Source of the DNA: Phycisphaera sp.
GTDB lineage: Bacteria; Planctomycetota; Phycisphaerae; Phycisphaerales; Phycisphaeraceae
Assembly (NCBI GenBank): GCA_028285385.1
Contig: JANQPR010000237.1
Location: 1-52,014 of the forward strand
Length of the DNA stretch: 52,014 nucleotides
Reading direction: 5' to 3'
Shown: positions 6,575-46,115 of the stretch, one piece after another
Layout of the letters: the number at the start of each line of letters is the position of its first letter
How positions within the stretch are numbered: the stretch's first letter is position 1
Program-made: the position numbers and the translations under genes
Notes under the pieces: model-generated
What the model was told of the DNA's origin: nothing
Databases searched by the model: none
The model's input: only the letters and a program-made list of their open reading frames with translations

Positions 6575-6820
6575 GCTGACAACCCACGGGTGCCCGGCGT
6601 GGGTCGCAGGTCGATTCCTGCGACGCGTCGGGTGAAAAGGGAAGTGCCGTGACCCCCGGTAGTTCAGGACGTCAATCGTTCTGGATCACGGGGCATTCGG
6701 CCGCGGACGCGCCGCCGTGATGGGCCCGCGTCCGGTCCACGAGCCACTGCCGTCGGTGCAACGCCGGCGGTGGGAAGGCGGGCCGGACGGTCGCCCTAAG
6801 CCGGAAGACCTGCCCGAGGT
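6575..6820 (+). ncRNA. Cobalamin (B12) riboswitch
   Basis: Several conserved blocks of the cobalamin riboswitch family occur in order: GGGTGCC (6588-6594), GGTGAAAAGGGAA (6631-6643, matching the T-G-A-A-x-A-G-G-G-A-A core), GCCACTG (6743-6749), TGGGAAGGC (6771-6779) and AAGCCGGAAGACCTGCC (6798-6814). The usual CCCGCAACTGTAA block is not obvious; an enlarged peripheral stem seems to lie between GTGA (6649) and CCGCGGAC (about 6701). The leader then runs about 250 bases to the GAAGGAG ribosome site at 7055-7061, so the expression platform lies in 6821-7067. A strong hairpin (GAGGACG...CGTCCTC) near 6832-6859 could be part of it. Confidence 0.85.
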
Positions 6821-7067: not shown

Positions 7068-9185
7068 ATGTTGCATCGCACTTTTGATCGGGCCGCGGCT
7101 TCCGCCGCGGCGGGTGTCCTTTTTGGGACGTTGGGCACGGCAGGCGCGGTCGGGGCGCAGTCAATCGACGACTACGCCTTGACCCGGACGTTTACCTTGC
7201 CCGCGGGTTCGGTCAACGTCTGGTTCGATGACCTGCCCGACGGCCGACTGCTGGTGCTCAACGGCAATCAGGTGTCGGTCGAGAGCGCCGTGGGCAGCGG
7301 CGTGTTCGACGCGCTGGGCACGGTGCCGAACTACGACCCCGCCTTCGGTCCCACGTTCCTCAAGGTGTCCCCGGACGGCACTCGGGCCGTGGCGGGAACC
7401 AACGGCGAGGGCTTCGTCGCCGTCTTCGACACAGCCGACCCGAGCAGTTCGACCAACTTCAGCGTCGGCGACTTCGACGCGGCCTGGCTGGACGACGACC
7501 GCGTCGCGATCGCCAACTTCAGCAGCACCACCTTCGAGACCGGCGTCGAGCTGCTGGACACGACCGACGGCACGGTCACCCCGCTGATCGTCGGGCTGGG
7601 CGGGGCCTCCTCGGGGATCACGTTCGACGCGGCCGGGAATCTTTACACCGGCAACGGCTTCGACTTCACCCCCGGCGGCAGCGACACCGGTTCGATCAAA
7701 GCGTTCGCGGCCTCGGACATCCAGTCCGCGATCACCGGCGGCACGACGATTGATTTTGAGGCCTCCGGCATCGAGGTGGCTGACCTGCTGTCCGCGTCGA
7801 GCCTGGGCTTCGACGACCTGGGCAACCTGTTCGTCGGCGGTGCCGACTTCTTCGGCGGCTCGGGGGACCTGGGCTATGCCGCGCTGGTCGACGGCGACGC
7901 CATCGACGCCCGGCTGGCCGACCCGGTGGGCGCGCCCGTGGTGGACACCAACTCGCCCGCCGCGCTGCTCCGTCAGTTCCCCAGCCCGCAGGACACGATC
8001 GACGCGATGGAGCCGCCGCTGTGGGTGTTCAACGAGGCAACGTCTGAGTTGTACCTGAAGTATCGCAACTTCGATGAGGTGCAGGTGTTCCAGGTTCCCG
8101 AGCCGGGAGTTGCCGCGCTGTTGGGCGGGCTGGGTTTGTTGGCGCTGCGTCGCCGACGCCGGGTCGCCGGTTGCGTGGCTGCGGGTTCGCTCGTGTTGGC
8201 GGCGAGCGCATCGGCGAGCCCGTATGCCGATGCGGTGGTGAGCTACGACCCCGGGCTAAACGCGGCTCCGGGTTTCACGGACCCAGCCACCGCGCTCGGC
8301 GAGCCGACCCGCGCGACCGTGCCGACCAGCCCCTTCGGTGGAGCGACCACGCCGTTCCAGCCGGCGTTCGGGGCCGACGAGATTGTTTCGATCGGCGAGA
8401 GCGGGCAGCTCACGGTGTCGTTCGACGATCCGGTCACCGACGACCCGGCCAATCCGTTCGGGATTGATTTGCTGGTGTTCGGCAACGCCTTCTACACCGA
8501 CGCCGACTTCCCCAACGGTCTTGCGGGTGGGCTGTTCGGCGAAGGCGGTGTGATCGAGGTCAGCGCGGACGGCGTCGACTTTTTTGAAGTCACGGGGTTG
8601 GACGCCGATGGTGCCTTCCCGACGCTGGGTTATCTCGATCCAACGGGCGCCGTCACCGCCGGCGGTAATCAGGTGACCGGGACGGTTCCCAGTGATTTCC
8701 TCAAACCCGTCGACCCCGCGTTTGATCCGGCGGGCAAGACGTTGGCTGAGATCCTGACGGGCTACGACGGCTCGGGCGGCGGCGTGGGCGTGGACCTGGC
8801 GTCCGTCGGGCTCGGTGCCGTGTCGTACGTGCGGGTCAGCAACCCCTCGGGCTCGGGCGTCACGCCCGAGATCGATGGCTTCGCGGATGTCGCCGCGGCG
8901 GCCTCAGGCGTGGTCGGGGACTACAACGACAGCGGGCAGGTCGAGCAGGGCGACCTGGACCTCGTGCTCCAGAACTGGGGGCGGGACACCGGCGTCGAAG
9001 GCGTGCCCGCGGGTTGGCTTAGCGACTTACCGTCCGGTTCTGTCGAACAGTCCGAGTTGGACGGGGTGCTTCAGAACTGGGGCGGCACCGGTGCGCCCGA
9101 GATGAACGGCACCGTGGTCCCTGAGCCCGCATCCTTGTTCGTTCTGATCACCGCCGCCGTGGGTCTGGACCGGAGGTCGGCTTGA
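7068..9185 (+). CDS. Double PEP-CTERM surface protein: beta-propeller-like half fused to a second secreted half
   Basis: A 705-residue exported protein starting at ATG 7068 behind GAAGGAG. Residues 1-30 form a signal peptide ([20 protein letters not shown]). Residues 31-340 look like a beta-propeller (repeated SPDGTRA- and FDxLGNL-type strands). At 343-365 there is a complete PEP-CTERM signal, VPEP, then a hydrophobic helix, then RRRRR. Instead of ending, the frame continues at once into what reads as a second signal peptide ([25 protein letters not shown]), a second globular domain, a two-part dockerin-like module (from residue 617, [15 protein letters not shown]) and a second PEP-CTERM (684-705). 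A TTG at 8139 could start the second half separately. It is the first gene under the cobalamin riboswitch. Its ligand is unknown; a surface role in cobalamin or metal handling is inference from the riboswitch. Confidence 0.8.
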
Positions 9186-10024
9186 GCTTTCTGCCGCATG
9201 GCTCACCCGCCGCGTTCAAGCCCGGAGACGGCTGTCTCCGGGCTTTCGCCGCGGTCGGTACGACGCGGGTTGCGTGCGGCCGCGCGTTCACGCTGGTCGA
9301 GTTGCTCGTGGTCATGGCGGTCATCGCGCTGCTGGTCGGGCTGCTGCTGCCGGCGCTGGGCGCGTCGCGCGAAGCGGGGCGGTCGGCGGCATGCCTGAGC
9401 AACCTGCGGCAGTGTGGCATCGCGCTGGCGGCGTACGCGGCGGACGAGGCGGGGCGGCTGCCGTTGGCCTACGACTACAACCACCCGTCGGGGCGGTTCG
9501 TGGAGTGGGACTTCGCGACGGATTACTCGGGCCCGCAGCCGACGGTCAGGCCGGGGCTGTTGTGGCAGGGCCGCGGCGACGGAAGGGTCCAGCAGTGCCC
9601 CAGTTACGACGGGCGGTCCAACACCATCGCCGACCCGTACACCGGCTACAACTACAACACGAGTTACCTCGGCGGATTCCGCCAGTTCGGTCAGATCGAT
9701 TTCGTCGCCTCGGCGCAACTGGAGCGGGTCCGTGACCCCGCGGGAACCGCGGCGTTCGGCGACGGGCAATACGAAGCCGGCGCGAACAAGTTCATGCGGG
9801 CTCCGCGCGCCATGGTCGGGCAGCCCGACGCCCCGCTCGACGCGGGGTTTACCGGCCGGTGGGCCGGGACCCAGGGTTTCCGTCATCACGGCGGGGCCGT
9901 GACACAGACCGCCCACGTCGACGGCCACGCCACGCCTTACGTCGATCGTTGGCTAGCCAGCTACCCGCTCGTCGATGGGACCGGATTTCTCTCCGAGGAC
10001 AACGCGGCGTATGACCTGCGTTAA
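9182..10024 (+). CDS. Pseudopilin-like protein (prepilin N-methylation signal, H-x9-DG type)
   Basis: A 280-residue protein with the type IV prepilin/type II pseudopilin signal [29 protein letters not shown] prepilin peptidase would cut before the Phe of FTLVE and methylate it. After the helix come [22 protein letters not shown] and a C-terminal [16 protein letters not shown], resembling the large planctomycete prepilin family. The only in-frame start that fits is TTG 9182, overlapping the upstream stop (TTGA) and preceded by GGAGG at 9172-9176, so translation is probably coupled to the surface-protein gene. The leader before the signal is long (about 35 residues) and is encoded by a perfect 12-bp hairpin, so the N-terminus is uncertain. 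Confidence 0.8.
9216..9243 (+). terminator. Perfect 12-bp hairpin inside the pseudopilin leader (terminator- or attenuator-like)
   Basis: AAGCCCGGAGAC (9216-9227), loop GGCT, and GTCTCCGGGCTT (9232-9243) followed by only one more T. It looks like the terminator of the preceding surface-protein gene but falls inside the reading frame of the next one. It may partly end transcription between the two genes. Confidence 0.5.
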
Positions 10025-34990: not shown

Positions 34991-36829
34991 ATGTCAGCGC
35001 GACGACGGGTACGACAGGTTCTGATGTTTTGGTTCAGCCTCTGGCTGTTCTGCATCACGCCGGTTGTCCACGGCGAGAGCTTCCGCGAGATCGTCGGGCC
35101 GGTCAGTGTCGGCGGTGTGAAGCCCGGCGGGGCGGTCGAGGTGCCGTTCATCACGTGGGGCGGCGACGTCGCCACGTTCCACGCGAACGGCGGCCTGAAG
35201 ACCACGCCCGGCTCGCTCTACAACGAACTCGGCCTCGACCTCGCGCTGCGTCCGGGCGACGACTTCCCAGAACAGGTTCGGCGGTACCTCGCCGGCGAGT
35301 CGCCGTTCCTGCGCGGCACGCTGCGGATGATCGGGCAGGCCTCGGAAGTGATCGGCGCCGACCCGCGGACCAGGCCGGTGATCATTATGCAGATGACCTG
35401 GTCGGCCGGCGACCACATCGTCTCACGGGGCCGGCTCAAGACGCTGAGCGACCTCAAGGGCGCAAAGGTGGCGCTGCAACGCGGCGGCCCGCACGTCGGG
35501 ATGCTCGACGACGCGTTGCGCGCCGCGCGGTTGACCTGGGACGACATCGACGTGGTGTGGACGGACGACTTGACCGGGCCGAACGGCCCCGCGGAGTTGT
35601 TCCGGAAGGACGGTTCGATCGACGCGTGCTGCGTGATCTCGCCGGACATGCTCGGGCTGACGGGTGGCCTGGACGAGGCGGGCACGGGGGCCGAGGGGAC
35701 CGTGCGAGACGCGCGCGTGTTGGTGTCGACGGCGCAGATGAGCCGGTCGATCGCGGACGTGTACGCCTGCCGGAAAGACTGGTTCGACGCGAACCGGGCG
35801 TGGGTCGAGAAGTTTGTGGCCGGCTACTTCAAGGCGAGCGAAGTCGTGGCCGAACAGCGTGACAGCTTCGAGGCGACCGGCCGGGGCAAGGACTACCTCG
35901 CGCTGCTTCAGAAGGCGCAGGACATCTACGGCGAGGACGTGCTGCCGACGCTGGAGATCGATGCGCACGGGTTGTTGCTCGACTGCACGTTCGTCGGTCT
36001 GCCGGGCAACCGCGCGTTCTTTAACCAAGCGGGCAACCTCAGCGGCTTCGAGGCGAAACAACGGCAGGCGCTCGACCTCGCGGTGAGTCAGGGTTACGCG
36101 AAGAACCGCGCGGGCTTCTTCCCGCCAGGCTGGGACTACAACGCGATGATCGCGCTCGCCGACCTGAAGCGGACCAGCGGCGCTGGTGGCGGCCGCATCC
36201 AGGCCGAGGGCGTAGACATCTTCCCGGACCAGGCCGGCGGCGACGAGAACACGCTGCTGTCGTTCACGATCCAGTTCGACCCGAATCAGGACGAGTTCAG
36301 CGACGCGGTGTATGGCCCGGAGTTCCTCCGCGCGATCGAGACCGCCTCGACGTTCGGCAACGCGGTCGTTGCGATCCGCGGGCACTCCGACCCGACCAAG
36401 ACGCTGGTCGATCTGGTCCGAGCGGGCATGGCGCGGAGAGTGCTGACGCGCTCGGGTTCGTCGGGCAACTACCGGTACTTCCTCGAGGGCAAGCCGCTCT
36501 CGCTGGAGAACACCGATCGGTTGATCGAGTTGATCAAGGGCGGCGCCTTCGATGGCGTTTCCGACGCCAACCCTCGCGAGACGATGCAGGCGGCGCTGAA
36601 CCTGTCTCGGGCTCGTGCGGTGGCGGTGCGTAGCGCGATCGTGCGGTACGCAGACAACGCGGGTCTAGCCTTGGACGCGTCGCAGATCCAGCCGGTCGGG
36701 GTCGGCGTGAGCGAGCCGTTGATCGCCAAGCCGCGCAACCTCGACGAGGCCCGCGAGAACATGCGCGTTGAGTTCCGCCTGGTCAAGGTCCCCGCGGAGG
36801 TCGTGAACCCGTCGGACTTTGACTTCTGA
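34991..36829 (+). CDS. NMT1-like solute-binding domain fused to an OmpA-type peptidoglycan-binding domain (operon gene 1)
   Basis: A 612-residue exported protein with a signal peptide (LMFWFSLWLFCITPVVHGES). Residues about 35-400 resemble NMT1/NrtA-type periplasmic binding proteins: WGGDVATFHANGG at the start, LKTLSDLKGAKVALQRGG as the typical hinge, and VEKFVAGYFKASE. Residues about 420-605 form an OmpA-like domain (FTIQFDPNQDEF, AVVAIRGHSDPT, LNLSRARAVAVRSAIV, ENMRVEFRLV), which binds peptidoglycan. A cell-wall-tethered binding protein is unusual. ATG 34991 follows AAAGGCGGCGAG; another ATG lies 36 bases upstream. The vWA gene starts 13 bases after the stop. No ligand can be inferred. Confidence 0.75.
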   Translation: MSARRRVRQVLMFWFSLWLFCITPVVHGESFREIVGPVSVGGVKPGGAVEVPFITWGGDVATFHANGGLKTTPGSLYNELGLDLALRPGDDFPEQVRRYLAGESPFLRGTLRMIGQASEVIGADPRTRPVIIMQMTWSAGDHIVSRGRLKTLSDLKGAKVALQRGGPHVGMLDDALRAARLTWDDIDVVWTDDLTGPNGPAELFRKDGSIDACCVISPDMLGLTGGLDEAGTGAEGTVRDARVLVSTAQMSRSIADVYACRKDWFDANRAWVEKFVAGYFKASEVVAEQRDSFEATGRGKDYLALLQKAQDIYGEDVLPTLEIDAHGLLLDCTFVGLPGNRAFFNQAGNLSGFEAKQRQALDLAVSQGYAKNRAGFFPPGWDYNAMIALADLKRTSGAGGGRIQAEGVDIFPDQAGGDENTLLSFTIQFDPNQDEFSDAVYGPEFLRAIETASTFGNAVVAIRGHSDPTKTLVDLVRAGMARRVLTRSGSSGNYRYFLEGKPLSLENTDRLIELIKGGAFDGVSDANPRETMQAALNLSRARAVAVRSAIVRYADNAGLALDASQIQPVGVGVSEPLIAKPRNLDEARENMRVEFRLVKVPAEVVNPSDFDF

Positions 36830-36842
36830 ACCGAGGGTGCCG

Positions 36843-37811
36843 ATGTTGCGTCGCCGTTTCACACCCCGTGCCATACACGCCGGCCTGATCTGGGGCGCGT
36901 TCCTGGCTGTCGCGATCTGTTGGGCCGATGCCCGCGGGCAAGACGCGGTGATCGACGCCGACAACGTCGTCGTGGTTCTGGATGCATCGGGGTCGATGGC
37001 CGAGCGGATGCCCGGGACCTACGAGCCGAAGATGAAGGTGGCCAAGGCCGCGCTCTGGGAGGTTGTCCGGCAGGTGCCAACGAGCACGAACGTGGGGCTG
37101 CTCGTCTTCAGCGGCCGGGGGAAGCAGGGGGATTGGCTGCACCCACTCGCTCCGGTTGACCGGGAGCTATTCCAGCGCTCCCTCGCACGACTGGAGCCGG
37201 ACGGGGGCACGCCGCTGGGTCGGTACATCAAGACCGGGGCCGACCGTCTGCTCGAACAGCGCGACGCGCAGCGGGGCTACGGCACGTTCCGTCTGATCAT
37301 TGTCACCGACGGGGAGGCGACCGACCCGGAACTGGTGAGCCGGTACACGCCCGAGGTGTTGTCGCGCGGCTTCACCGTGGAGGCGATCGGCGTGGCGATG
37401 GCCTCGGAGCACGCCTTGGCGAATCGCGTGCACGTTTACCGCCGGGCGGACGACCCCGGCGCGTTGCGTGAGGCGCTCACGTCCGCGGTGGCGGAGATCG
37501 GAACCACGGCCCGAGATACCGTCGCCGATGCGTCAGAGTTTGACGTGATCGCGGCTTGGCCGCAGGAGGCCGCGGCGGAGGCGCTGGCCGCGTTACGGGT
37601 GTCGGGCAATGCGCCGATCGGCGAGAACCCGGCAAGTCCGGCCGTGGCCGGTGCCGCGTCAGACGCCGCATGGTCGGTTGGTGGGAACGCGGGCTCGGGG
37701 AAAGCGTCGGGAGGATTCAGCGTTAACGTCTCTTTCTTCGGGGTCGTGATTCTAGTGATCGTGTTCAGCGTGGTGTTGCGGGTGCTCAAGGCGTTGGTGC
37801 GGAAGGACTGA
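36843..37811 (+). CDS. Membrane-bound von Willebrand factor A protein (operon gene 2)
   Basis: A 322-residue protein: signal peptide (to about 33), a vWA domain and a C-terminal membrane helix (FFGVVILVIVFSVVLRVL, near 298-315). The metal-ion adhesion site is complete: DASGS at 47-51, the Thr in DGGTPLG, and TDGEATD. vWA domains mediate metal-dependent protein contacts. The domain would lie outside the cytoplasm, where gene 1 and gene 3 products also sit, so these are likely partners. ATG 36843 has GAGGG upstream; the next gene begins one base after the stop, implying coupled translation. Confidence 0.82.
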   Translation: MLRRRFTPRAIHAGLIWGAFLAVAICWADARGQDAVIDADNVVVVLDASGSMAERMPGTYEPKMKVAKAALWEVVRQVPTSTNVGLLVFSGRGKQGDWLHPLAPVDRELFQRSLARLEPDGGTPLGRYIKTGADRLLEQRDAQRGYGTFRLIIVTDGEATDPELVSRYTPEVLSRGFTVEAIGVAMASEHALANRVHVYRRADDPGALREALTSAVAEIGTTARDTVADASEFDVIAAWPQEAAAEALAALRVSGNAPIGENPASPAVAGAASDAAWSVGGNAGSGKASGGFSVNVSFFGVVILVIVFSVVLRVLKALVRKD

Positions 37812-37812
37812 G

Positions 37813-39501
37813 TTGAGCCGAGGCCGATCCAGCAAGCTCGTCGCGGTGGCCCTGGTGTGGGTGGTGATCGTCGTGCTGGGGGCGTTGGCCTATCGGATGA
37901 TCGTTGCGCCGCGGGTCGAGTCGGGCCGGGCGTACGACGAAGCGCGTGATGCGTATCGTGAACTCGCCGAAGAAGCCGAACGCCGCGGTGTGACGCCCGA
38001 CCCGTTGCCCGCCGACGCCGACGCGGCGACGCTCCGCGCGATGGTGGACGACCTGCGGGCCCGGCTCACCAGCAGCGCGGCGGCGGGCGTCGCGATCCGG
38101 CACCGCGTCGGGATCTCGCTGGACTCTTTCTCGGGTTATGCCGTGTTCCGCAGCGCCTCGTTGGCCGACGAACTGGCGGGCATGGGCATCGCGTTGGAAC
38201 TGGTTGACGATGGCGCGGATTACGGGGCGCGGCTTCGTTCGATTCGGAGCGGCCGAACCCCGCTCGCGGTATTCACGCTCGACGCGTTGATCAAGGCGGC
38301 GGCCGCGCTCGGCGAGAGCCCCGCGACGGTGGTCATGGTGATCGACGAGACGACGGGCGCCGACGCAATGATCGCGTATGAGACGGGGTTGCCGGACCTC
38401 GCGGCGCTCGACTCGCCGGATGCGCGGATCGTGACGACGCGTGACTCGCCGAGCGAGACGCTGGCTCGGGTGGTGATGTCGAACTTCTCGCTGCCCAAGC
38501 TCCCCGACGAGCCATGGGTGGACGCCGACGGTGCCGCCGACGTGTACCGCCGTTTTCGCGCGGCCGATCCGAGTTCGCCCCACGCGTTCGTGCTGTGGGA
38601 ACCGTTCCTGAGCCAGGCGCTCCGGGAGCCCGGGGCGCACGTGCTGATGGACAGCTCGAGGTTCCGTGGCTACATCGTCGACGTGCTCGTGGTTCAGCGC
38701 GACTACCTGCTCAAGCACGAGGCTGAGGTCCGGCAGTTGGTCGAGGCGTACCACCGCGTCGCGCACCGGCTTCAGCGGGAACCCAACGCTTGGCGTCGCA
38801 TGATCGCCGAGGACGCCGCGGCGACGGGTGAAACACTTTCCGATGACCAGATCGGTCGCTTGCTGGACGGCATCTGGTGGAAGAACACGCTGGAGAACTA
38901 CGCCCACTTCTCGCTGCTACCCGACGCGCGCGACGGTTCTGTGCAGCCGTTGACCCGGAGCGTCACGAACCTCGTCCGTGTATTGCAGCGCACCGGGTCC
39001 ATCTCGAACGACCCAACGCAAGGCGATCCCGGCCGGCTGCTCTACGACGCCGTGCTCCGCGAACTGCGGGAGGCCGGCTTCCATCCTGGCGATGCACAGA
39101 GCGAGACCGTCGAGGCGGTGCGTGAGGGTGCGGCGGTCCGCGCGTTGTCCGATGCTCAGTGGTCGGCGCTGGTGCCGGTTGGCACGCTCGACGTGAGCCG
39201 GCTGGTGTTTGCGCGCGGTAAGGCGGCGCTCACGAACCGGTCGCAGCAGACGCTCCGCGAACTGGCGGACACGCTGGACCACTGGCCCCGGTACTATCTC
39301 GTGGTCGAAGGCCAGGCGCGATCGATCGGCGACACCGACGCGAACCGTGCGTTGGCCGAGCAACGCGCGGCATCGGCGAGGGAGTTCCTGATCGCGCAGG
39401 GCGTCGACGCCCGACGCGTCCGCGCCCGGACCGGCGACGAGTTGGGCCGAGGCGGTGCCGCTCAATCCGTCACCTTTGCGTTGATGCAACCGCCGTACTG
39501 A
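37813..39501 (+). CDS. Membrane-anchored NMT1-like domain with OmpA-type C-terminus (operon gene 3)
   Basis: A 562-residue protein with one N-terminal membrane helix (LVAVALVWVVIVVLGALAY), a short helical linker, an NMT1/solute-binding-like domain (about 93-360; SGYAVFRSASLADELAGMGI, FVLWEPFLSQAL, GYIVDVLVVQRDYL) and an OmpA-like domain (about 460-560; LVFARGKAALTNRSQQTL, VVEGQARSIGDTDANR, LAEQRAASAREFLI). It would bridge the inner membrane and peptidoglycan. The start is TTG 37813 with GAAGGA upstream, one base after the vWA stop. WEPF resembles the WNPF of the lipoprotein encoded further down, so the binding domains are probably paralogous. Ligand unknown. Confidence 0.75.
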   Translation: MSRGRSSKLVAVALVWVVIVVLGALAYRMIVAPRVESGRAYDEARDAYRELAEEAERRGVTPDPLPADADAATLRAMVDDLRARLTSSAAAGVAIRHRVGISLDSFSGYAVFRSASLADELAGMGIALELVDDGADYGARLRSIRSGRTPLAVFTLDALIKAAAALGESPATVVMVIDETTGADAMIAYETGLPDLAALDSPDARIVTTRDSPSETLARVVMSNFSLPKLPDEPWVDADGAADVYRRFRAADPSSPHAFVLWEPFLSQALREPGAHVLMDSSRFRGYIVDVLVVQRDYLLKHEAEVRQLVEAYHRVAHRLQREPNAWRRMIAEDAAATGETLSDDQIGRLLDGIWWKNTLENYAHFSLLPDARDGSVQPLTRSVTNLVRVLQRTGSISNDPTQGDPGRLLYDAVLRELREAGFHPGDAQSETVEAVREGAAVRALSDAQWSALVPVGTLDVSRLVFARGKAALTNRSQQTLRELADTLDHWPRYYLVVEGQARSIGDTDANRALAEQRAASAREFLIAQGVDARRVRARTGDELGRGGAAQSVTFALMQPPY

Positions 39502-39507
39502 CGACCG

Positions 39508-40314
39508 ATGAACGATGCAGGCCGCGACCGACCGGGCTACGCCAAGCGGGTGCTGCTCGACCTCGTCGGCTCGGCGTGGGTCTTGGTTCCGACGGCGGCA
39601 GGGTTCACCGCGATCATGGCCGACTGGGCCGGGGGCGGCGGCGCGGGGTGGGGTGCGTGGCTTGGCGTGACCGGTTTGCTGGTCGGCGCGGGGGCGCTGG
39701 CGACGCGCTGGCTGACCGGGGCCGACCGCATCGCCGAGCGCGTCGCGGCCGAGGAACTCGAGCGCGAAGCGGCCGCTCGACGCGCACGGCTGCAGAATCT
39801 CGACCGGCGCCTCAAGGCCGACGACGACCGCACCACCAACCAGGCCCTCGCCGGGCTGGTCGACCTGGAACGCCGGCTCGAGGCGTTGACACGGCCGGCC
39901 AAAGGAAAGCCGTCAGCGCCGCCCGAGCTGGTCTCGAAGGCCCGCGAGTTGATCGAGTCGAGTTTGCACTCCCTTGAGCGTGCGGCCGACCTGCACGAGA
40001 TGCGGAGCCGGGTCATCACCGACGAGGCGCGGCAGCGCATCGAGACCGCGCGTCTCGACGTCATCGACGAGGTCGTCGCGTCCATCACGCAGATCATCCG
40101 CACCCTCGACGGGCTCCACACGCTGGGCCTGGACCGGAACCGGCCGGAGGGCGAACTCGCACGGATGCGGCGTGAACTGGACCAATCGCTCGAAGTCGCC
40201 CGCCGGGTCGAGCGGCGCATGGTCGACCTGGAGCACCGCCTCGACGGGCCGTCCCAAACATGGGAGGATGACGGGCGTGACGCCGCGTCCGCGGGAGGGC
40301 CGTCGGCGTCATGA
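39508..40314 (+). CDS. Membrane protein with long coiled coil, unknown (operon gene 4)
   Basis: A 268-residue protein with two membrane helices near the N-terminus (about 14-36 and 46-64), then a long helical, charged stretch (AERVAAEELEREAAARRARLQNLDRRL onwards, with two more heptad-rich blocks) lying in the cytoplasm if the two helices form a hairpin. I recognise no family. It begins six bases after gene 3 and precedes the PspA-like gene by 52 bases. A coiled coil at the inner membrane next to PspA suggests a membrane docking partner, by analogy with PspB/PspC; this is inference. Confidence 0.65.
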   Translation: MNDAGRDRPGYAKRVLLDLVGSAWVLVPTAAGFTAIMADWAGGGGAGWGAWLGVTGLLVGAGALATRWLTGADRIAERVAAEELEREAAARRARLQNLDRRLKADDDRTTNQALAGLVDLERRLEALTRPAKGKPSAPPELVSKARELIESSLHSLERAADLHEMRSRVITDEARQRIETARLDVIDEVVASITQIIRTLDGLHTLGLDRNRPEGELARMRRELDQSLEVARRVERRMVDLEHRLDGPSQTWEDDGRDAASAGGPSAS

Positions 40315-40366
40315 TCTGGGTGTGGACCCGGCGTCCGTTCTCCTCGACACGAAAGGATGAGAGGCC

Positions 40367-41197
40367 TTGTTCCGAGCCATCGGCAAATACTTCCGAGCGT
40401 TGGGCTACCTGATCACCGGCCGGATCGACCGCGCCCGGCAGGAGCTGAGCAAGAACCCGCACGTCGTCCAGGCGACCTACGACCGCGTGATCCGCGAGAA
40501 GAAGGACCGCATCCAGCAGTACAAGGACGCGGTCGCACGGATGATCGCACAGCAGGAAAAGAAGGCCGCTCGCGTCAAGTCGCTCACCGAAGACGTGAAC
40601 CGGCTCGAGCAGCTCAAGGAAGGCGCCGCCGCCAAAGCACGCACGCTGGTCAAGGACCTGCAGGGTCAGGGCATGTCGCTCGAGCAGATCAAGCAGCACC
40701 CCGAGTACGTCAAGTGCATGACCGCGTTCAACGACTTCACCTCGACCTCGAGCGAAAAGTCCGAACACATCGCCGAGCTCGAAGGCGATGTCAGCGAACT
40801 CGGCGAGACGATCGACGGCCACAAGGTCCAGTTGCAACAGCTGCTCCGCGACATCGACAAGCTGAAGCAAGAGGCGTCGCAGGCCGTGGCCGACATGATC
40901 ACCGCCAAGGAAGAAGAGGAGATCGCGGACATGATCTCCGGCATCAGCGAAGACCGCACCAGCCAGGAACTCGCCGAGCTGCGTGACTTAAGGCAGCAAC
41001 AGAAAGCCGAGGCTCGCATCGCTCGCGAGATGGCCGGCACCGACACGATGAAGCAGGAGGCCGAGTTCCTCGAGTACGCTCGGACCAGCAGCTCGACCGA
41101 CGAGTTCGATCGACTGATCGGCTTGGCCGAAGAAACCGACCGGACGGCGGCGCCGCCGGACGCGGCCCGGGCAGAGCCGAAGTTGCCCGAGTCTTGA
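40367..41197 (+). CDS. PspA/IM30-family (ESCRT-III-like) protein (operon gene 5)
   Basis: A 276-residue, almost wholly helical protein. The N-terminus MFRAIGKYFRALGYLITGRID gives the amphipathic helix that binds membranes; then long coiled-coil helices (NPHVVQATYDRVIREKKDRIQQYKDAV, EKKAARVKSLTEDVNRLEQL, and AELEGDVSELGETIDGHKVQLQQLL) as in PspA and Vipp1. These polymerise on stressed inner membranes and are relatives of eukaryotic ESCRT-III. Its operon also contains an AAA+ ATPase, as ESCRT-III works with Vps4. TTG 40367 is the start, with AAGGA upstream. The C-terminal 60 residues are acidic and less conserved-looking. A clear hairpin follows before the next gene. Confidence 0.72.
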   Translation: MFRAIGKYFRALGYLITGRIDRARQELSKNPHVVQATYDRVIREKKDRIQQYKDAVARMIAQQEKKAARVKSLTEDVNRLEQLKEGAAAKARTLVKDLQGQGMSLEQIKQHPEYVKCMTAFNDFTSTSSEKSEHIAELEGDVSELGETIDGHKVQLQQLLRDIDKLKQEASQAVADMITAKEEEEIADMISGISEDRTSQELAELRDLRQQQKAEARIAREMAGTDTMKQEAEFLEYARTSSSTDEFDRLIGLAEETDRTAAPPDAARAEPKLPES

Positions 41198-41200
41198 GCC

Positions 41201-41223
41201 GCCGCCGTACGGCGGCTTCTTCT
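41201..41223 (+). terminator. Hairpin between the PspA-like gene and the ABC transporter genes
   Basis: GCCGCC-gtac-GGCGGC (41201-41216) is a perfect palindrome followed by TTCTTCT (41217-41223), three bases after the PspA stop. It may be a partial terminator that lowers expression of the downstream half of the operon. Confidence 0.5.
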
Positions 41224-41259
41224 AGTACTGATCCTTCTCGATTCTGTAGGGGTTAAACC

Positions 41260-42348
41260 ATGAGGCGTAGCACCCAGAGTTTCGGAATCACCATTGCCGC
41301 GGCTGCCTTGTCTTTGGGCCTAGTTGGCTGCGGCGGCGGCGACACCGGCGTCACCACGTCGACCGGCGACCTGCCCGTGTTCAAGCTCGCGTGGAGCGAG
41401 TACCCGTCGTGGTCGGTGTTTGGCGTGGCGGACATGCACGGCCTTATCGACGGTGACGAGGGCAAACTCGGCCCGATTGAGACCGAGCATGGCGTCGACC
41501 TCGTTCTGCTGGAGACCGACTACGACACCTGCATCACGCTCTACGCGACCGGCGAGACCGACGCCGTGTGTATCACGAACATGGACATCCTGAACCCGGC
41601 AATGTCCCGCAAGGCGGTGGCGATCCTGCCGACCTCTACGAGCAACGGCGCCGACGCATTGATCGTGGCCGGCGTCGACGACGTCACGCAACTCCGCGGC
41701 CAGCCGGTCTACGGGCTCGAAGCCTCGGTGTCGCAGTACACGTTCGTCCGTAACCTCGAGTTACTCGGCGAAAACCCGTCCGATCACAACTTCACCAACA
41801 TGGACCCTGCCGCCGCTGCTCAGGCCATGATCACCGGGCAGGACGGCTACAACGCGATCGTCGTGTGGAACCCGTTCGTGCTCGAGACGCTCAAGAAGCG
41901 TCAGGACGCAAGGGTGCTGTTCGACAGCTCCGCCATCCCCGGCGAGATCGTGGACATGGTCGTGATGGCCGCGTCGTCGTTGGAACGCCCCGGCGGAGAG
42001 GCCGCCGCCCGCGCGATCTGCGACGCCTTCTACCAGCTCAACGCGAAGCTTGAAGACCCGGACGTCGGCGACGAAACACTCGTCGCGCTCGGCTCGAAGT
42101 TTTCTTCGCTTGGGCTGGAACAGATGAAACAGGTCGTGGTGCAGACCGACTTCTACGAATCCTCCGAACTCGGCGCGGCGCTGTTCGAAGGCGACGAGAT
42201 GAAGCAGACGATGGATAAGGTCGTCGGCTTCTGCAAGGCGTACGGAATTATCGAAACCGACCCGACAGTCTCGTTTGGGGCCGGCGACGGCGCAGACCTG
42301 ACCTTCACGACGCACTTCATGAAGGCCGTGGCCGAACCGACCCCGTGA
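41260..42348 (+). CDS. NMT1/NrtA-type solute-binding lipoprotein (operon gene 6)
   Basis: A 362-residue lipoprotein: signal peptide with lipobox LVG-C (Cys 25) and Gly-rich spacer, then a periplasmic binding fold of the nitrate/sulfonate/taurine type. Blocks: FKLAWSEYPSW, YDTCITLYATGETDAVCITNMD, NAIVVWNPFVLETLKK, PGEIVDMVVMAASSLERPGG. In this family such proteins deliver anions or organosulfur/nitrogen compounds. It is followed, with a four-base overlap (GTGA), by the permease gene, so an ABC importer is certain in outline; the substrate is not. ATG 41260 has AGGGG upstream. It is related to the binding domains of genes 1 and 3. Confidence 0.88.
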   Translation: MRRSTQSFGITIAAAALSLGLVGCGGGDTGVTTSTGDLPVFKLAWSEYPSWSVFGVADMHGLIDGDEGKLGPIETEHGVDLVLLETDYDTCITLYATGETDAVCITNMDILNPAMSRKAVAILPTSTSNGADALIVAGVDDVTQLRGQPVYGLEASVSQYTFVRNLELLGENPSDHNFTNMDPAAAAQAMITGQDGYNAIVVWNPFVLETLKKRQDARVLFDSSAIPGEIVDMVVMAASSLERPGGEAAARAICDAFYQLNAKLEDPDVGDETLVALGSKFSSLGLEQMKQVVVQTDFYESSELGAALFEGDEMKQTMDKVVGFCKAYGIIETDPTVSFGAGDGADLTFTTHFMKAVAEPTP

Positions 42349-43145
42349 TCTGTCGCCCCGTCGAGTGGCGGACCCGGCTGGCGCTCGGCGTGCTGTCCGT
42401 CGTACTGCTCGGGTTCGGCTACACCTGGCTCGCGCAACGGCAGCACGCAAACAATCCGGACGACCGCACAATCCCGACCTGGTCGCAACTCGGCGAAGGC
42501 GTGATGAAGACCGTCCGGCCCCACCCGATCAGCGGGGAGGTCTGGCTCGCGAGCGACGCGGCGGCAACGTTTGGCCGACTGGGGCTAGGCTTGCTCGCGG
42601 GTGTTGTGCTTGGAGTGACGCTGGGCCTGGGGATGGGGTGTTTCGGCCCGATCGAGGCGCTGTGCCTGCCGACGGTCGCAGCGATCGCGAAGGTGCCGCC
42701 GACGGCGATGCTCGCGGTGTTCTTCGTGTTGGTCGGGACCCAGACCGAGTTCTACGTGGCGATGATCGCGTTCGGCGTGACCCCGATCCTGGCCCAGACC
42801 CTATACCGGGCCGCCCGTGACGACGTCCCGGACGAGCTGCTGCAGAAGGCGGCGACGCTCGGCGCATCGACGTTCGAGCTGGTGTGGAACGTCGTGTTCA
42901 AGCAGGTTCTGCCACGGCTGATCGAGGTCGTTCGGCTGCAGATCGGCCCGGCGATGGTGTTCCTGATCGCCGCCGAGTACGCCGCGGCTGACCAGGGTTT
43001 CGGCTATCGGCTCCGGATCGAGGCACGGAAGGTGAACTTCGACGTGGTCTACTTTTACCTTGCGTTGTTGGCTGCTTCGGGCTTCCTGTTCGACTTTGCG
43101 CTCACGTCTTTGCGTCGTTGGTGGTGCCCGTGGTTCGAGAAATGA
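42345..43145 (+). CDS. ABC transporter permease, NrtB/SsuC-like (operon gene 7)
   Basis: A 266-residue inner-membrane permease with six or so helices (LALGVLSVVLLGFGYTWL, LGLGLLAGVVLGVTLGLGMGCFG, and others). The cytoplasmic coupling loop that contacts the ATPase reads DELLQKAATLGASTFELVWNV, then VLPRLIEVVRL, as in nitrate, sulfonate and taurine permeases. It starts at GTG 42345 within the previous gene's stop and overlaps the ATPase gene by four bases (ATGA), giving strict translational coupling. The homodimer would form the channel for the lipoprotein-bound substrate. Confidence 0.9.
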   Translation: MICRPVEWRTRLALGVLSVVLLGFGYTWLAQRQHANNPDDRTIPTWSQLGEGVMKTVRPHPISGEVWLASDAAATFGRLGLGLLAGVVLGVTLGLGMGCFGPIEALCLPTVAAIAKVPPTAMLAVFFVLVGTQTEFYVAMIAFGVTPILAQTLYRAARDDVPDELLQKAATLGASTFELVWNVVFKQVLPRLIEVVRLQIGPAMVFLIAAEYAAADQGFGYRLRIEARKVNFDVVYFYLALLAASGFLFDFALTSLRRWWCPWFEK

Positions 43146-44170
43146 GCTACGCCACCGCCGAGTCTGTAAGTATGACAACGGCCGGTGTCGATCCCGTGCT
43201 CGAACTCGACGGTGTCGGTCATTGGTTTGGTCGCAACCGGGTGCTGCGCGGTATCGACCTGCACATTGCTCGCGGGCAGATCGTCGCGCTCGTCGGCCCG
43301 AGCGGCTGTGGCAAGTCGACGCTGCTCCGCGCAATCCTCGGGACCGACCCGCCCAAAGCCGGGCAGGTCAGGATGAATGGCGTCGCCGTCGATCGGCCCG
43401 GCCGAGATCGCGGCATCGTGTATCAGCGGTACGGCCTGTACCCGTTCATGACCGCGCGGGAGAACGTGGCGTTCGGTCTAATGCTTGACCAGACCAGCCT
43501 GCCTCAACGGCTGCTGCGTTTCTATCCGTGGAGCCGCCAGCGCAAGCGTCACCTCGAGTTGGCCGACGCCTGGTTGCGAGACGTCGGCCTCAGCGCAGCC
43601 GCCGATCGCTACCCTCACGAGCTTTCGGGCGGCATGCGTCAGCGGGTCGCGTTCGCGGCGGCGAAGGTCATGAAGCCCGAACTGCTGCTTCTCGACGAGC
43701 CGTTCGGCGCGCTGGATGAAGCGACGCGTGAAGACCTGCAACAGATGCTGCTCACGCGTTACGCCGAGAACGTCGCGGCGGTTGCGGGGGGGCAGCCGGC
43801 GCCGCACACGATCCTGATCGTGACGCACGAGTTGAACGAAGCGATCTTCGTGGCCGACCGCGTCGTCGGGCTCAGCCAGTACTGGAACTGGCGCGAGTCG
43901 GGTTACGACGATTGCCCGGGCGCGACGATCGTCTACGACCAGCCGGCCCCGGTGTTTACGCCCGGCAGCGAGCGCCCGACCGACGCGTTCTTCAAGCAAC
44001 GCAGCGAGATCCGTCGCGTCGTCTTCGACACCACGGCCCGCACCAATCCGGCGGATTACGTTTCCTTCTGGCCGCATTGGGCCGGTCAAGCCACACCTCC
44101 GACGTTTGGCGGTTCGGTTCTCGGCGCGGCTTCGGCGGCACAGCGGGGATCGGGAGTAGACGATGAATGA
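43142..44170 (+). CDS. ABC transporter ATPase, NrtD/SsuB-like, with extended C-terminus (operon gene 8)
   Basis: A 342-residue ATPase. Walker A GPSGCGKST, the Q-loop region YQRYGLYPF, signature LSGGMRQRVAFA, Walker B LLLLDEPFGALD and the H-loop IVTHE are intact, so it is active. The domain ends near residue 245; about 95 extra residues follow (TPGSERPTDAFFKQRSEIRRV and onward). NrtC-type ATPases also carry C-terminal extensions, but this one shows no recognisable binding domain. ATG 43142 overlaps the permease stop; its own stop is overlapped by the AAA+ gene by eight bases. The extension could be a contact site for the AAA+ or PspA-like proteins; that is conjecture. Confidence 0.9.
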   Translation: MSYATAESVSMTTAGVDPVLELDGVGHWFGRNRVLRGIDLHIARGQIVALVGPSGCGKSTLLRAILGTDPPKAGQVRMNGVAVDRPGRDRGIVYQRYGLYPFMTARENVAFGLMLDQTSLPQRLLRFYPWSRQRKRHLELADAWLRDVGLSAAADRYPHELSGGMRQRVAFAAAKVMKPELLLLDEPFGALDEATREDLQQMLLTRYAENVAAVAGGQPAPHTILIVTHELNEAIFVADRVVGLSQYWNWRESGYDDCPGATIVYDQPAPVFTPGSERPTDAFFKQRSEIRRVVFDTTARTNPADYVSFWPHWAGQATPPTFGGSVLGAASAAQRGSGVDDE

Positions 44171-46115
44171 ATCCAGCCCCGACGCCCGGCTTGATCTATC
44201 CGAACCCAAGTCATCTTCCGATTCTCCGGGTAAACCCGAGTTTTTCGGGGAACTCGCCCGTGTCGTGAACGCCAGGCTTGCGCCGAGTGTGATCCTAGCC
44301 GGGCAGATCCACGACCTGTTCTTCTCCGACGATTCTCTCAAGCGCGAGGTCGGCGACGCAGGCTCTTTTGTCTCGCTGGTTGACTTCCTCGGCGACCACT
44401 GCCGTGTCGATGGTCTGATGCTGTTGGTGTACGAACTGAACGGGCCGATCCGCTTGCTGTGGAACGGGCCGACAGACGAAGGCTGGGACCGGCTGCGTCG
44501 GGCGTGGGTGTCGTGGAAGGCGGGGGTCGACCACGACCGGCTCGTGCTCAGAGCCCTCACCGATCGAGACGCCGCCCGTCAACGCGAAGCGCTCGACGCC
44601 GACTTCGACCGTCAAGTCAACGGGGTGATCGGCCAGCCCACGGTCGCGCTCGAGTTTCTGCGGCAACTCACGCTCTGCTCCCGAGAAAGCGAGGCAAACG
44701 GCGACGGGTTGCGTGAGCGGTTGCTCATGATCGTGGAGGCCGCCGACCTGATGTTGCCGGTGGGCCGAAGCGACATCAGTTCACTCAGCGCGGCGGATCG
44801 GCACCGGATCGCGGTCGTGCAGGACTGGTTTGCCGACCCGGGGTTTCTCGACGGAGGGGACACGGTGGTTTTGCTGGCAGAGTCGTCGGCGTTGATCCAT
44901 CCGCGGGTTTCCAAGCTGCCTTCGGTAGTGAGCATCGCCGTGGATTCGCCGGACCTGGCGACGCGGCGTCTCTATATCGAACGTTTCCTGGATGGACGCG
45001 AGCCGTTGTCACAGGGCTCTGGTCGTGAGGCGCTCGACGACGGCGTCACCCGGCCTGGGCTCGAACTGTGGTCTTCCGTCGACGAGCTCGCGCGTTTGAC
45101 TGCCGGGTTATCCATTCACGCGTTGCGACAGATGCTCCGCTCGGCGCAACATCGTGGCAACCGGCTTGAGCCCGGAGACGTGGTCGCTCAGGTCGAACGC
45201 CACATCGGGCCGATGCTGGGTGAGGATGTGGTCGAGTTCAAGAAACCGACGCACACGCTGGACGACGTCGTCGGCGCGACGCGCCTGAAGGCATTCCTCC
45301 GCGACGAGTTGATACCCCGGTTTCGTGCGAGCGACGATTCGGCGTTGCCCGGCGCGGCGGTGGCGGGGCCGATCGGCGGCGGCAAGACGTTCATTTTCGA
45401 GGCCGTCGCGGCCGAACTGGGCCTGCCCGTGCTGGTGCTGAAGAACATCCGTAGCCAGTGGTTCGGGCAGACGGATGTGGTGTTTGAACGCCTGCGTCGG
45501 GTGCTGATGTCGCTGGGCAAGGTCGTGATCTTCGTCGACGAGGCGGACACGCAGTTCGGCGGGGTCGGGGCCAACACGCACGAGACCGAGCGTCGGCTCA
45601 CCGGCAAGGTGCAGCAGATGATGTCCGACCCGGCGCTGCGAGGGAAGGTGATCTGGCTGCTGATGACGGCGCGGATCGAGCGGCTGTCGCCCGACATCCG
45701 TCGACCGGGACGCGTGGGGGACCTGATCATCCCCGTGCTGGACCCCGAGGCGGGCAGCAACGACCGCCTGGCGTTCCTGCGCTGGGCCGTGTCGCCGGCG
45801 TTCGGCGGAAACCCTGGCGATGAAGTTATGGCCGACCTCGATCCGGCCATCGCGGCGACCTCGGCGGCGGCGTTCGCGGCGCTACGCGCCCGGCTCAAAG
45901 CCGCATTCCCATACGGCGACGGCGACGTCTCGGGCGTCAAGCGGATCGTCCACGATCAACTGCCCCCCGACATCGGCCGGGCCCGCAGGTACCAGACGCT
46001 CCAAGCGATGCTCAACTGCACCCGTCGGTCGTTGCTCCCGTCGACGGACGTCGACGACGCGACGCGGCAAAGCTGGCAAGCAGAAATCCGACGGCTCGAA
46101 GTCGAAGGGCTGTGA
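44163..46115 (+). CDS. Two-module AAA+ ATPase, first module degenerate (operon gene 9)
   Basis: A 650-residue protein. The N-terminal module (about 25-330) has the AAA-like layout but no Walker A: where the P-loop should be it reads VILAGQIHDLF, and there is later VVLLAESSALIHPRV and an RRLYIERFL region, so it is probably inactive. The C-terminal module is intact: PIGGGKTF (Walker A, about 402-409), VIFVDEADTQF (Walker B, about 455-465), sensor LLMTARIE, and DIRRPGRV with arginine fingers. AAA+ proteins of this kind remodel protein assemblies; the gene partners PspA, as Vps4 does ESCRT-III. ATG 44163 overlaps the ABC ATPase stop by eight bases. Ends the operon. Confidence 0.85.
   Translation: MNESSPDARLDLSEPKSSSDSPGKPEFFGELARVVNARLAPSVILAGQIHDLFFSDDSLKREVGDAGSFVSLVDFLGDHCRVDGLMLLVYELNGPIRLLWNGPTDEGWDRLRRAWVSWKAGVDHDRLVLRALTDRDAARQREALDADFDRQVNGVIGQPTVALEFLRQLTLCSRESEANGDGLRERLLMIVEAADLMLPVGRSDISSLSAADRHRIAVVQDWFADPGFLDGGDTVVLLAESSALIHPRVSKLPSVVSIAVDSPDLATRRLYIERFLDGREPLSQGSGREALDDGVTRPGLELWSSVDELARLTAGLSIHALRQMLRSAQHRGNRLEPGDVVAQVERHIGPMLGEDVVEFKKPTHTLDDVVGATRLKAFLRDELIPRFRASDDSALPGAAVAGPIGGGKTFIFEAVAAELGLPVLVLKNIRSQWFGQTDVVFERLRRVLMSLGKVVIFVDEADTQFGGVGANTHETERRLTGKVQQMMSDPALRGKVIWLLMTARIERLSPDIRRPGRVGDLIIPVLDPEAGSNDRLAFLRWAVSPAFGGNPGDEVMADLDPAIAATSAAAFAALRARLKAAFPYGDGDVSGVKRIVHDQLPPDIGRARRYQTLQAMLNCTRRSLLPSTDVDDATRQSWQAEIRRLEVEGL

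Follow-up and report, generated by a model that had tools for sequence, protein, structure and literature searches.

Positions 34991 to 46115 of the window analysed here (the whole 52,014-nucleotide stretch of contig JANQPR010000237.1, Phycisphaera sp. assembly GCA_028285385.1) carry nine plus-strand genes, g1 to g9, in which a predicted diverged member of the PspA/ESCRT-III superfamily (g5) is linked to a classical AAA ATPase (g9), an importer (g6 to g8) and a set of membrane and periplasmic proteins (g1 to g4). The association recurs in several bacterial phyla, g5 ends in a conserved (L/I)PE tail, and the locus may encode a membrane-remodelling system that is coupled to transport. The initial annotation, made from the letters of the sequence, had placed nine open reading frames (ORFs) here, separated by 13, 1, 6, 52 and 62 bases and then overlapping by 4, 4 and 8; the ORFs are present and the spacing agrees exactly.

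Scanning the contigs of GTDB genomes with g5 led us to fetch 40 loci, which span Planctomycetota, Verrucomicrobiota, Lentisphaerota, Omnitrophota, Hydrogenedentota, Acidobacteriota, Myxococcota and Thermodesulfobacteriota. Profile searches found all nine families together in 14 loci besides the window (13 of the 40 fetched, and L104, recovered by a genome search), chiefly from Planctomycetota and Verrucomicrobiota; several further loci are incomplete because their contigs end. The gene order of the window was kept on a single strand in 11 of the 14 complete loci, with g5 between g4 and g6 and g9 downstream of g8. At L027, L034 and L039, g9 precedes g1; L039, from the cultured Botrimarina colliarenosi Pla108, has its g8 match on the opposite strand, where the locus ends. 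The search for co-occurrence and order that had been suggested for this locus thus bore out the joining of PspA, AAA+, importer and wall-binding proteins as a real and recurrent association. Importer genes recur with g5 and g9 across phyla, and a looser version of the linkage is seen in sister systems. Close relatives of g5 were present in 7 of 148 Planctomycetota genomes sampled, and close relatives of g9 in the identical seven. The cluster is accessory, as this count shows and as does a sampled congener of the window's species in which it is absent.

The predicted fold and a chain of profile comparisons together indicate that g5 is a diverged member of the PspA/ESCRT-III superfamily. An AlphaFold2 model built from 40 sequences (mean predicted local distance difference test score, pLDDT, 77.5) has the helix layout expected for PspA/Vipp1, with helices predicted at 3-29, 31-100, 112-194 and 198-251. 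A Foldseek search of the PDB with this model had Vipp1, a PspA family protein, as its first-ranked match (6zvr, E 3.7e-4); Vipp1 occupied 9 of the top 10 rows, and several of the Vipp1 alignments cover nearly the whole g5 chain. Sister clusters in other planctomycetes hold a PspA in the place of g5, adjoining a relative of g9, and these proteins supply a bridge: profile comparison with hhalign connected g5 to sister PspA with 96% probability (E 3e-9) and sister to canonical PspA with 98%, while reversed-sequence controls reached at most 6%. The one sister PspA scanned with Pfam, that of L086, scored over the cut-off of PF04012 (50.6 bits) and adjoins a g9 relative.

Beyond approximately residue 258 the 40 aligned g5 sequences vary in length and letters, and all 40 carry (L/I)PE within five residues of the C-terminus. 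From the composition of the tails, such an ending has a chance of about 0.4% per sequence, a figure to be read in the knowledge that related sequences are not independent draws. We spotted the pattern on inspecting the tails, without a prior prediction. Its sole test afterwards was on four additional g5 sequences that genome searches had yielded (L043, L044, L046 and L047); all four have the tail. Most of the sister PspAs that neighbour a g9 relative finish with (M/L/I)GP or a near variant of it. Neither ending is present in the canonical PspAs that we read, and a distant PspA-like protein in genome G029 is without the LPE tail. ESCRT-III proteins offer Vps4 a short motif (the MIT-interacting motif, MIM) on a flexible tail, and by analogy we read the (L/I)PE tail of g5 as a candidate docking tag for its AAA+ partner, g9.

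The g9 protein has the features of a classical AAA ATPase of the Vps4/Cdc48 clade (Pfam AAA match of 54 bits, over the cut-off). Its C-terminal AAA domain conserves, over 22 members, a Walker A motif (GxxGxGKT), a DEAD-type Walker B motif (VDEAD), RRPGR arginine fingers and an aromatic pore loop that reads WFG, WYG or YYG (QWFGQTD in the window). The nearest solved structure is Cdc48 D1, with katanin/Mei-1 and Vps4 further off. The N-terminal half is AAA-like and degenerate, without a Walker A motif. It stands in place of the MIT domain of Vps4, and the CdvC model scored 33 bits against a cut-off of 650, so that g9 is not a Vps4 in the narrow sense.

The remaining proteins would place the system across the envelope. 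The vWA (von Willebrand factor A) label given earlier to g2 held (PF00092, 1e-10), as did OmpA for g3 (1.5e-12), permease for g7, ABC ATPase for g8 and AAA for g9, all over the cut-offs of their hidden Markov models (HMMs). By HMM, g1 shows weak likeness to solute-binding proteins (SBPs) and to OmpA, both domains being traceable in the family alignment; among the seven families that were aligned it is the best conserved, with a mean column identity of 69%. In its OmpA domain D467 and R542, at the diaminopimelate-contacting Asp and Arg positions of OmpA, are invariant in 21 of 21 sequences, and g1 thus has both residues of a peptidoglycan binder. In g3, by contrast, the Arg (R518) is kept and the Asp position holds R or S in 23 of 23. 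The metal-ion-dependent adhesion site (MIDAS) of g2 is invariant in 23 members (D55, S57, S59, T131 and D164, numbered from 36819), and the protein, with a signal-like N-terminus and a C-terminal transmembrane (TM) segment, looks exported. The g1 proteins have a conserved (S)DFDF end (36815-36826), and g3 proteins end in an aromatic PY, PF or AY (39487-39498); the acidic tail could be a ligand of the g2 MIDAS.

The membrane protein g4 belongs to no recognised family. A second ESCRT-III protein at this position, the 'TM Snf7' of Ravi et al. 2024 (mSystems, PMC11237479), was not adopted: comparison of g4 with the PspA profile gave less than 2%, and no ESCRT-III protein was among the rows that Foldseek or VIA-align listed for g4. 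For g6 the match to TIGR03427 (urea-type SBP) reached 152.4 bits, under the NCBIfam cut-off of 333.9. The SBP domains of g1, g3 and g6 fall in the NMT1/SsuA/TauA/TIGR03427 superfamily far below every family cut-off, and g6 and g1 match solved SBPs weakly; for these reasons we dropped the naming of a solute.

Table 1. Genes and sequence features of the nine-gene locus (window coordinates).
Feature	Position	Strand	Description
g1	34991..36829	+	Signal peptide, NMT1/SsuA-type solute-binding domain, OmpA-like domain with insert
g2	36843..37811	+	Secreted vWA protein, complete MIDAS (DASGS, TP, TDGE), C-terminal TM anchor
g3	37813..39501	+	N-terminal TM anchor, solute-binding domain, OmpA domain
g4	39508..40314	+	N-terminal hydrophobic helices and helical bundle; membrane protein
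g5	40367..41197	+	Predicted diverged PspA/ESCRT-III-superfamily protein, TTG start
(L/I)PE tail codons of g5	41183..41191	+	LPE, residues 273-275
Terminator-like hairpin	41201..41216	+	GCCGCCGTACGGCGGC then TTCTTCT, between g5 and g6
g6	41260..42348	+	Lipoprotein-type solute-binding protein, TIGR03427-like (urea/taurine/sulfonate superfamily)
g7	42345..43145	+	Importer permease, TauC/SsuC/NtrB type
g8	43142..44170	+	Importer ATPase (nitrate/taurine type); Walker A, signature and Walker B motifs intact
g9	44163..46115	+	Classical AAA ATPase; N-terminal AAA domain degenerate, C-terminal AAA domain intact
Walker A of g9 active domain	45366..45389	+	GPIGGGKT, residues 402-409

The cluster is not the only setting in which g5 is found. 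Of the 40 fetched loci, 11 show a second arrangement, a g5-g9 pair without transporter genes, and a g4 was recognised at two of the 11; contig ends truncate some of these loci, and some stop shortly beyond g5. A quick tree of g5 required five changes between the pair and cassette states, and we did not adopt a single origin for the cassette. At L033 (939-9613), L036 (1-4012), L040 (3-7673) and L102 (9740-17239) the g5-g9 pairs have as neighbours flotillin-type genes and a coiled-coil/ATPase-like gene of very large size, Pfam confirming Band_7 in L033 only among the four, and at L019 a gene for a PspF-like sigma-54 activator with a Fis helix-turn-helix (8401-9387, minus strand) diverges from the pair. 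Flotillin genes and PspF-like sigma-54 activators are classic PspA neighbourhoods. The sister cluster at L086 (4571-12219, minus strand) comprises a PspA, an AAA+ protein, an SBP-OmpA protein, a permease, an ATPase and a TM-coil protein; that at L089 (4367-12319, plus strand) comprises vWA, PspA-like and SBP-OmpA proteins, a permease-type ORF, an ATPase and an AAA+ protein. The distant PspA-like protein of genome G029 (E 9e-23) and the distant g9 of that genome (E 3e-109) lie on separate contigs (L048 and L103). Ribosomal protein genes lie near the cluster, in the downstream flank, at four verrucomicrobial loci (L006, L008, L018 and L029). The sole RNA family match of the window, a cobalamin riboswitch (RF00174, 55 bits; 6584-6820, plus strand), is far from the cluster.

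We propose that the locus encodes a transporter-coupled PspA/AAA+ membrane-remodelling system in which g9 would dismantle a g5 polymer, through the tail, at a site shared with the importer. The protein g5 would form polymers on the cytoplasmic side of the inner membrane, with g4 as a probable helper. As a dedicated g5 unfoldase, g9 would use its active AAA ring, whose aromatic pore loop resembles that of Vps4, to grip the (L/I)PE tail of g5 on its flexible linker and extract subunits, so that the polymer turns over. Meanwhile g6, g7 and g8 would take up a small solute, and g1 (periplasmic and peptidoglycan-binding), g3 (membrane-anchored) and g2 (with its MIDAS) may form a periplasmic complex that links solute binding and wall contact to the g5/g9 site. 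The basis in sequence is the domain content, the intact motifs, the conserved clustering, the PspA ancestry of g5 and its invariant tail; from these we infer g5 polymerisation, recognition of the tail by g9, coupling to transport and the identity of a solute. Taken whole, the scheme seems to us evenly poised between right and wrong, and our confidence is higher for its g5-g9 part than for the coupling to transport.

Several results weigh against this scheme. PF04012 (PspA/IM30) had no match to g5 at E<=0.1, nor any match elsewhere in the genome, so that the PspA label of the initial annotation fails in Pfam and stands by fold and profile bridge; direct comparison of g5 with the canonical PspA profile gave a weak 11%. 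The Z scores of g5 from VIA-align (11.2-11.6) are no higher than those of unrelated helical hairpins, and for this reason we rejected them as proof of a PspA fold. Of the binding proteins described earlier as wall-anchored, g1 retains that description on its invariant residues, while the loss of the Asp leaves it doubtful for g3. A single unit had been proposed from the tight spacing; terminator-like hairpins after g5 make a single operon doubtful. The fold of the hairpin in the window is not unusual (z -1.05) and such matches are not enriched over shuffles, but clearer hairpin and T-run terminators lie at the g5-g6 junction in L008, L013 and L029. With terminators after g5, g1-g5 and g6-g9 may therefore be two transcripts, and we consider two transcripts and one equally likely. 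A sigma-70 promoter scan found none, a result that is uninformative at 67% GC content. In genome G092, g1-g2-g3-g4-g6-g7-g8 lie on one contig and g5-g9 on another, and at L007, L016 and L102 the pair has no transporter nearby. The coupling to transport may therefore be loose.

Such separations would follow naturally if two modules merely share a neighbourhood, one a nutrient importer with extra binding proteins and the other an independent PspA/AAA+ pair for envelope maintenance, a local Psp response. The divided genome G092, the 11 pair loci, with flotillin-type or PspF-like genes beside some of them, and the terminators in several loci all favour this explanation. Chance neighbours would scatter, however, and in the 11 complete loci, from several phyla, g5 and g9 hold fixed places among the importer genes; sister systems with other PspA proteins also unite the same gene kinds. 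We consider the two-module explanation unlikely, if credible. It is still less probable that g9 is an assembly or quality-control chaperone of a membrane complex (the importer, g2 and g4) rather than a g5 disassembler, with g5 as scaffold or adaptor. AAA+ and vWA proteins often act together as chaperones, as in the metal chelatases and MoxR, and in the window the g8 and g9 genes share 8 bases. The exported-looking g2, however, would be beyond the reach of a cytoplasmic ATPase, g9 is of the classical Vps4/Cdc48 type and not a MoxR, and it stays with g5 in pairs that lack g2, g7 and g8.

The patchy spread of the cluster (close g5 in 7 of 148 genomes, and a congeneric species without it), together with its AAA+ and vWA parts, might instead suggest an anti-phage or other conflict system. 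PADLOC gave no specific match to the core proteins of known anti-phage systems, its matches being generic (ABC/AAA, coiled-coil), and an importer, an SBP and OmpA proteins are untypical parts of a defence system; to this explanation we give very little credence. Turnover of PspA by the AAA+ protein, as first suggested for this locus, is kept as the best account. The accompanying suggestion, that binding domains would sense a solute or envelope state and so drive the turnover, is weakened by several genomes in which the g5-g9 pair lies away from the transporter genes. More tentatively, and with the chances against it, the system might be a bacterial counterpart of ESCRT-III/Vps4, in which the (L/I)PE tag is recognised, turnover is set by the periplasmic complex and the state of nutrients or wall controls remodelling.

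For PspA homologues without a linked AAA ATPase, Ravi et al. call the regulation of assembly unknown (PMC11237479), and PspA rods have a slow ATP hydrolysis of their own (PMC11746142). With its own linked AAA+ protein and a fixed C-terminal tag, such a bacterial PspA would make ATP-driven PspA disassembly directly testable. If the proposed mechanism is true, it would show an ESCRT-III/Vps4-like logic at work in bacteria, and membrane remodelling would have a new input in the link to importer and wall.

Among known systems, ESCRT-III/Vps4 (archaeal CdvB/CdvC, eukaryotic Snf7/Vps4) likewise pairs an ESCRT-III-superfamily protein with a classical AAA protein that has an aromatic pore loop and arginine fingers, and the short tail motif of g5 on a flexible linker resembles the MIM motifs familiar from ESCRT-III proteins. 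The two differ in the motif itself and in the N-terminus of g9, a degenerate AAA domain where Vps4 has its MIT domain. Classical Psp systems (PspF, PspBC or flotillin) share the PspA superfamily, and some g5-g9 pairs stand beside a PspF-like or flotillin-type gene; in contrast to those systems, g5 falls under Pfam detection, the AAA+ protein is dedicated, and the partners include an importer and wall-binding proteins. The FtsZl1/vWA/OmpA/GTPase clusters (Biol Direct 2010, PMC2875224) also join vWA and OmpA proteins to an inferred membrane remodeller, but theirs is a relative of FtsZ and not PspA/AAA+.

Closest is the operon type of Ravi et al. (PMC11237479), whose text describes longer operons with a PspA, an ATPase of two AAA domains (the N-terminal one dead), an ABC ATPase, a permease and an SBP-OmpA protein; the published example is OGG56892.1, and the functional inference is the same as ours. 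The parts described there are matched by g5, g9, g8, g7 and g1/g3, so that the system type was already described. The initial annotation knew of no named system with this gene set: no name appeared in the literature searched, while the core set proves to have been published. The shared elements are the PspA-type protein, the ATPase with a dead N-terminal AAA domain, the importer ATPase and permease, and the SBP-OmpA fusion. In the window these are joined by a vWA protein, another SBP-OmpA protein and a lipoprotein SBP encoded by a gene of its own, and the g5 of the window lies outside Pfam PspA and has the fixed LPE tail; the main text of that paper contains neither 'vWA' nor 'von Willebrand'. 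What is new here is the nine-gene form with its spread and linkage, the PspA ancestry indicated for g5, which escapes Pfam, the split between g1 and g3 in their OmpA residues, the internal terminators and the (L/I)PE tail.

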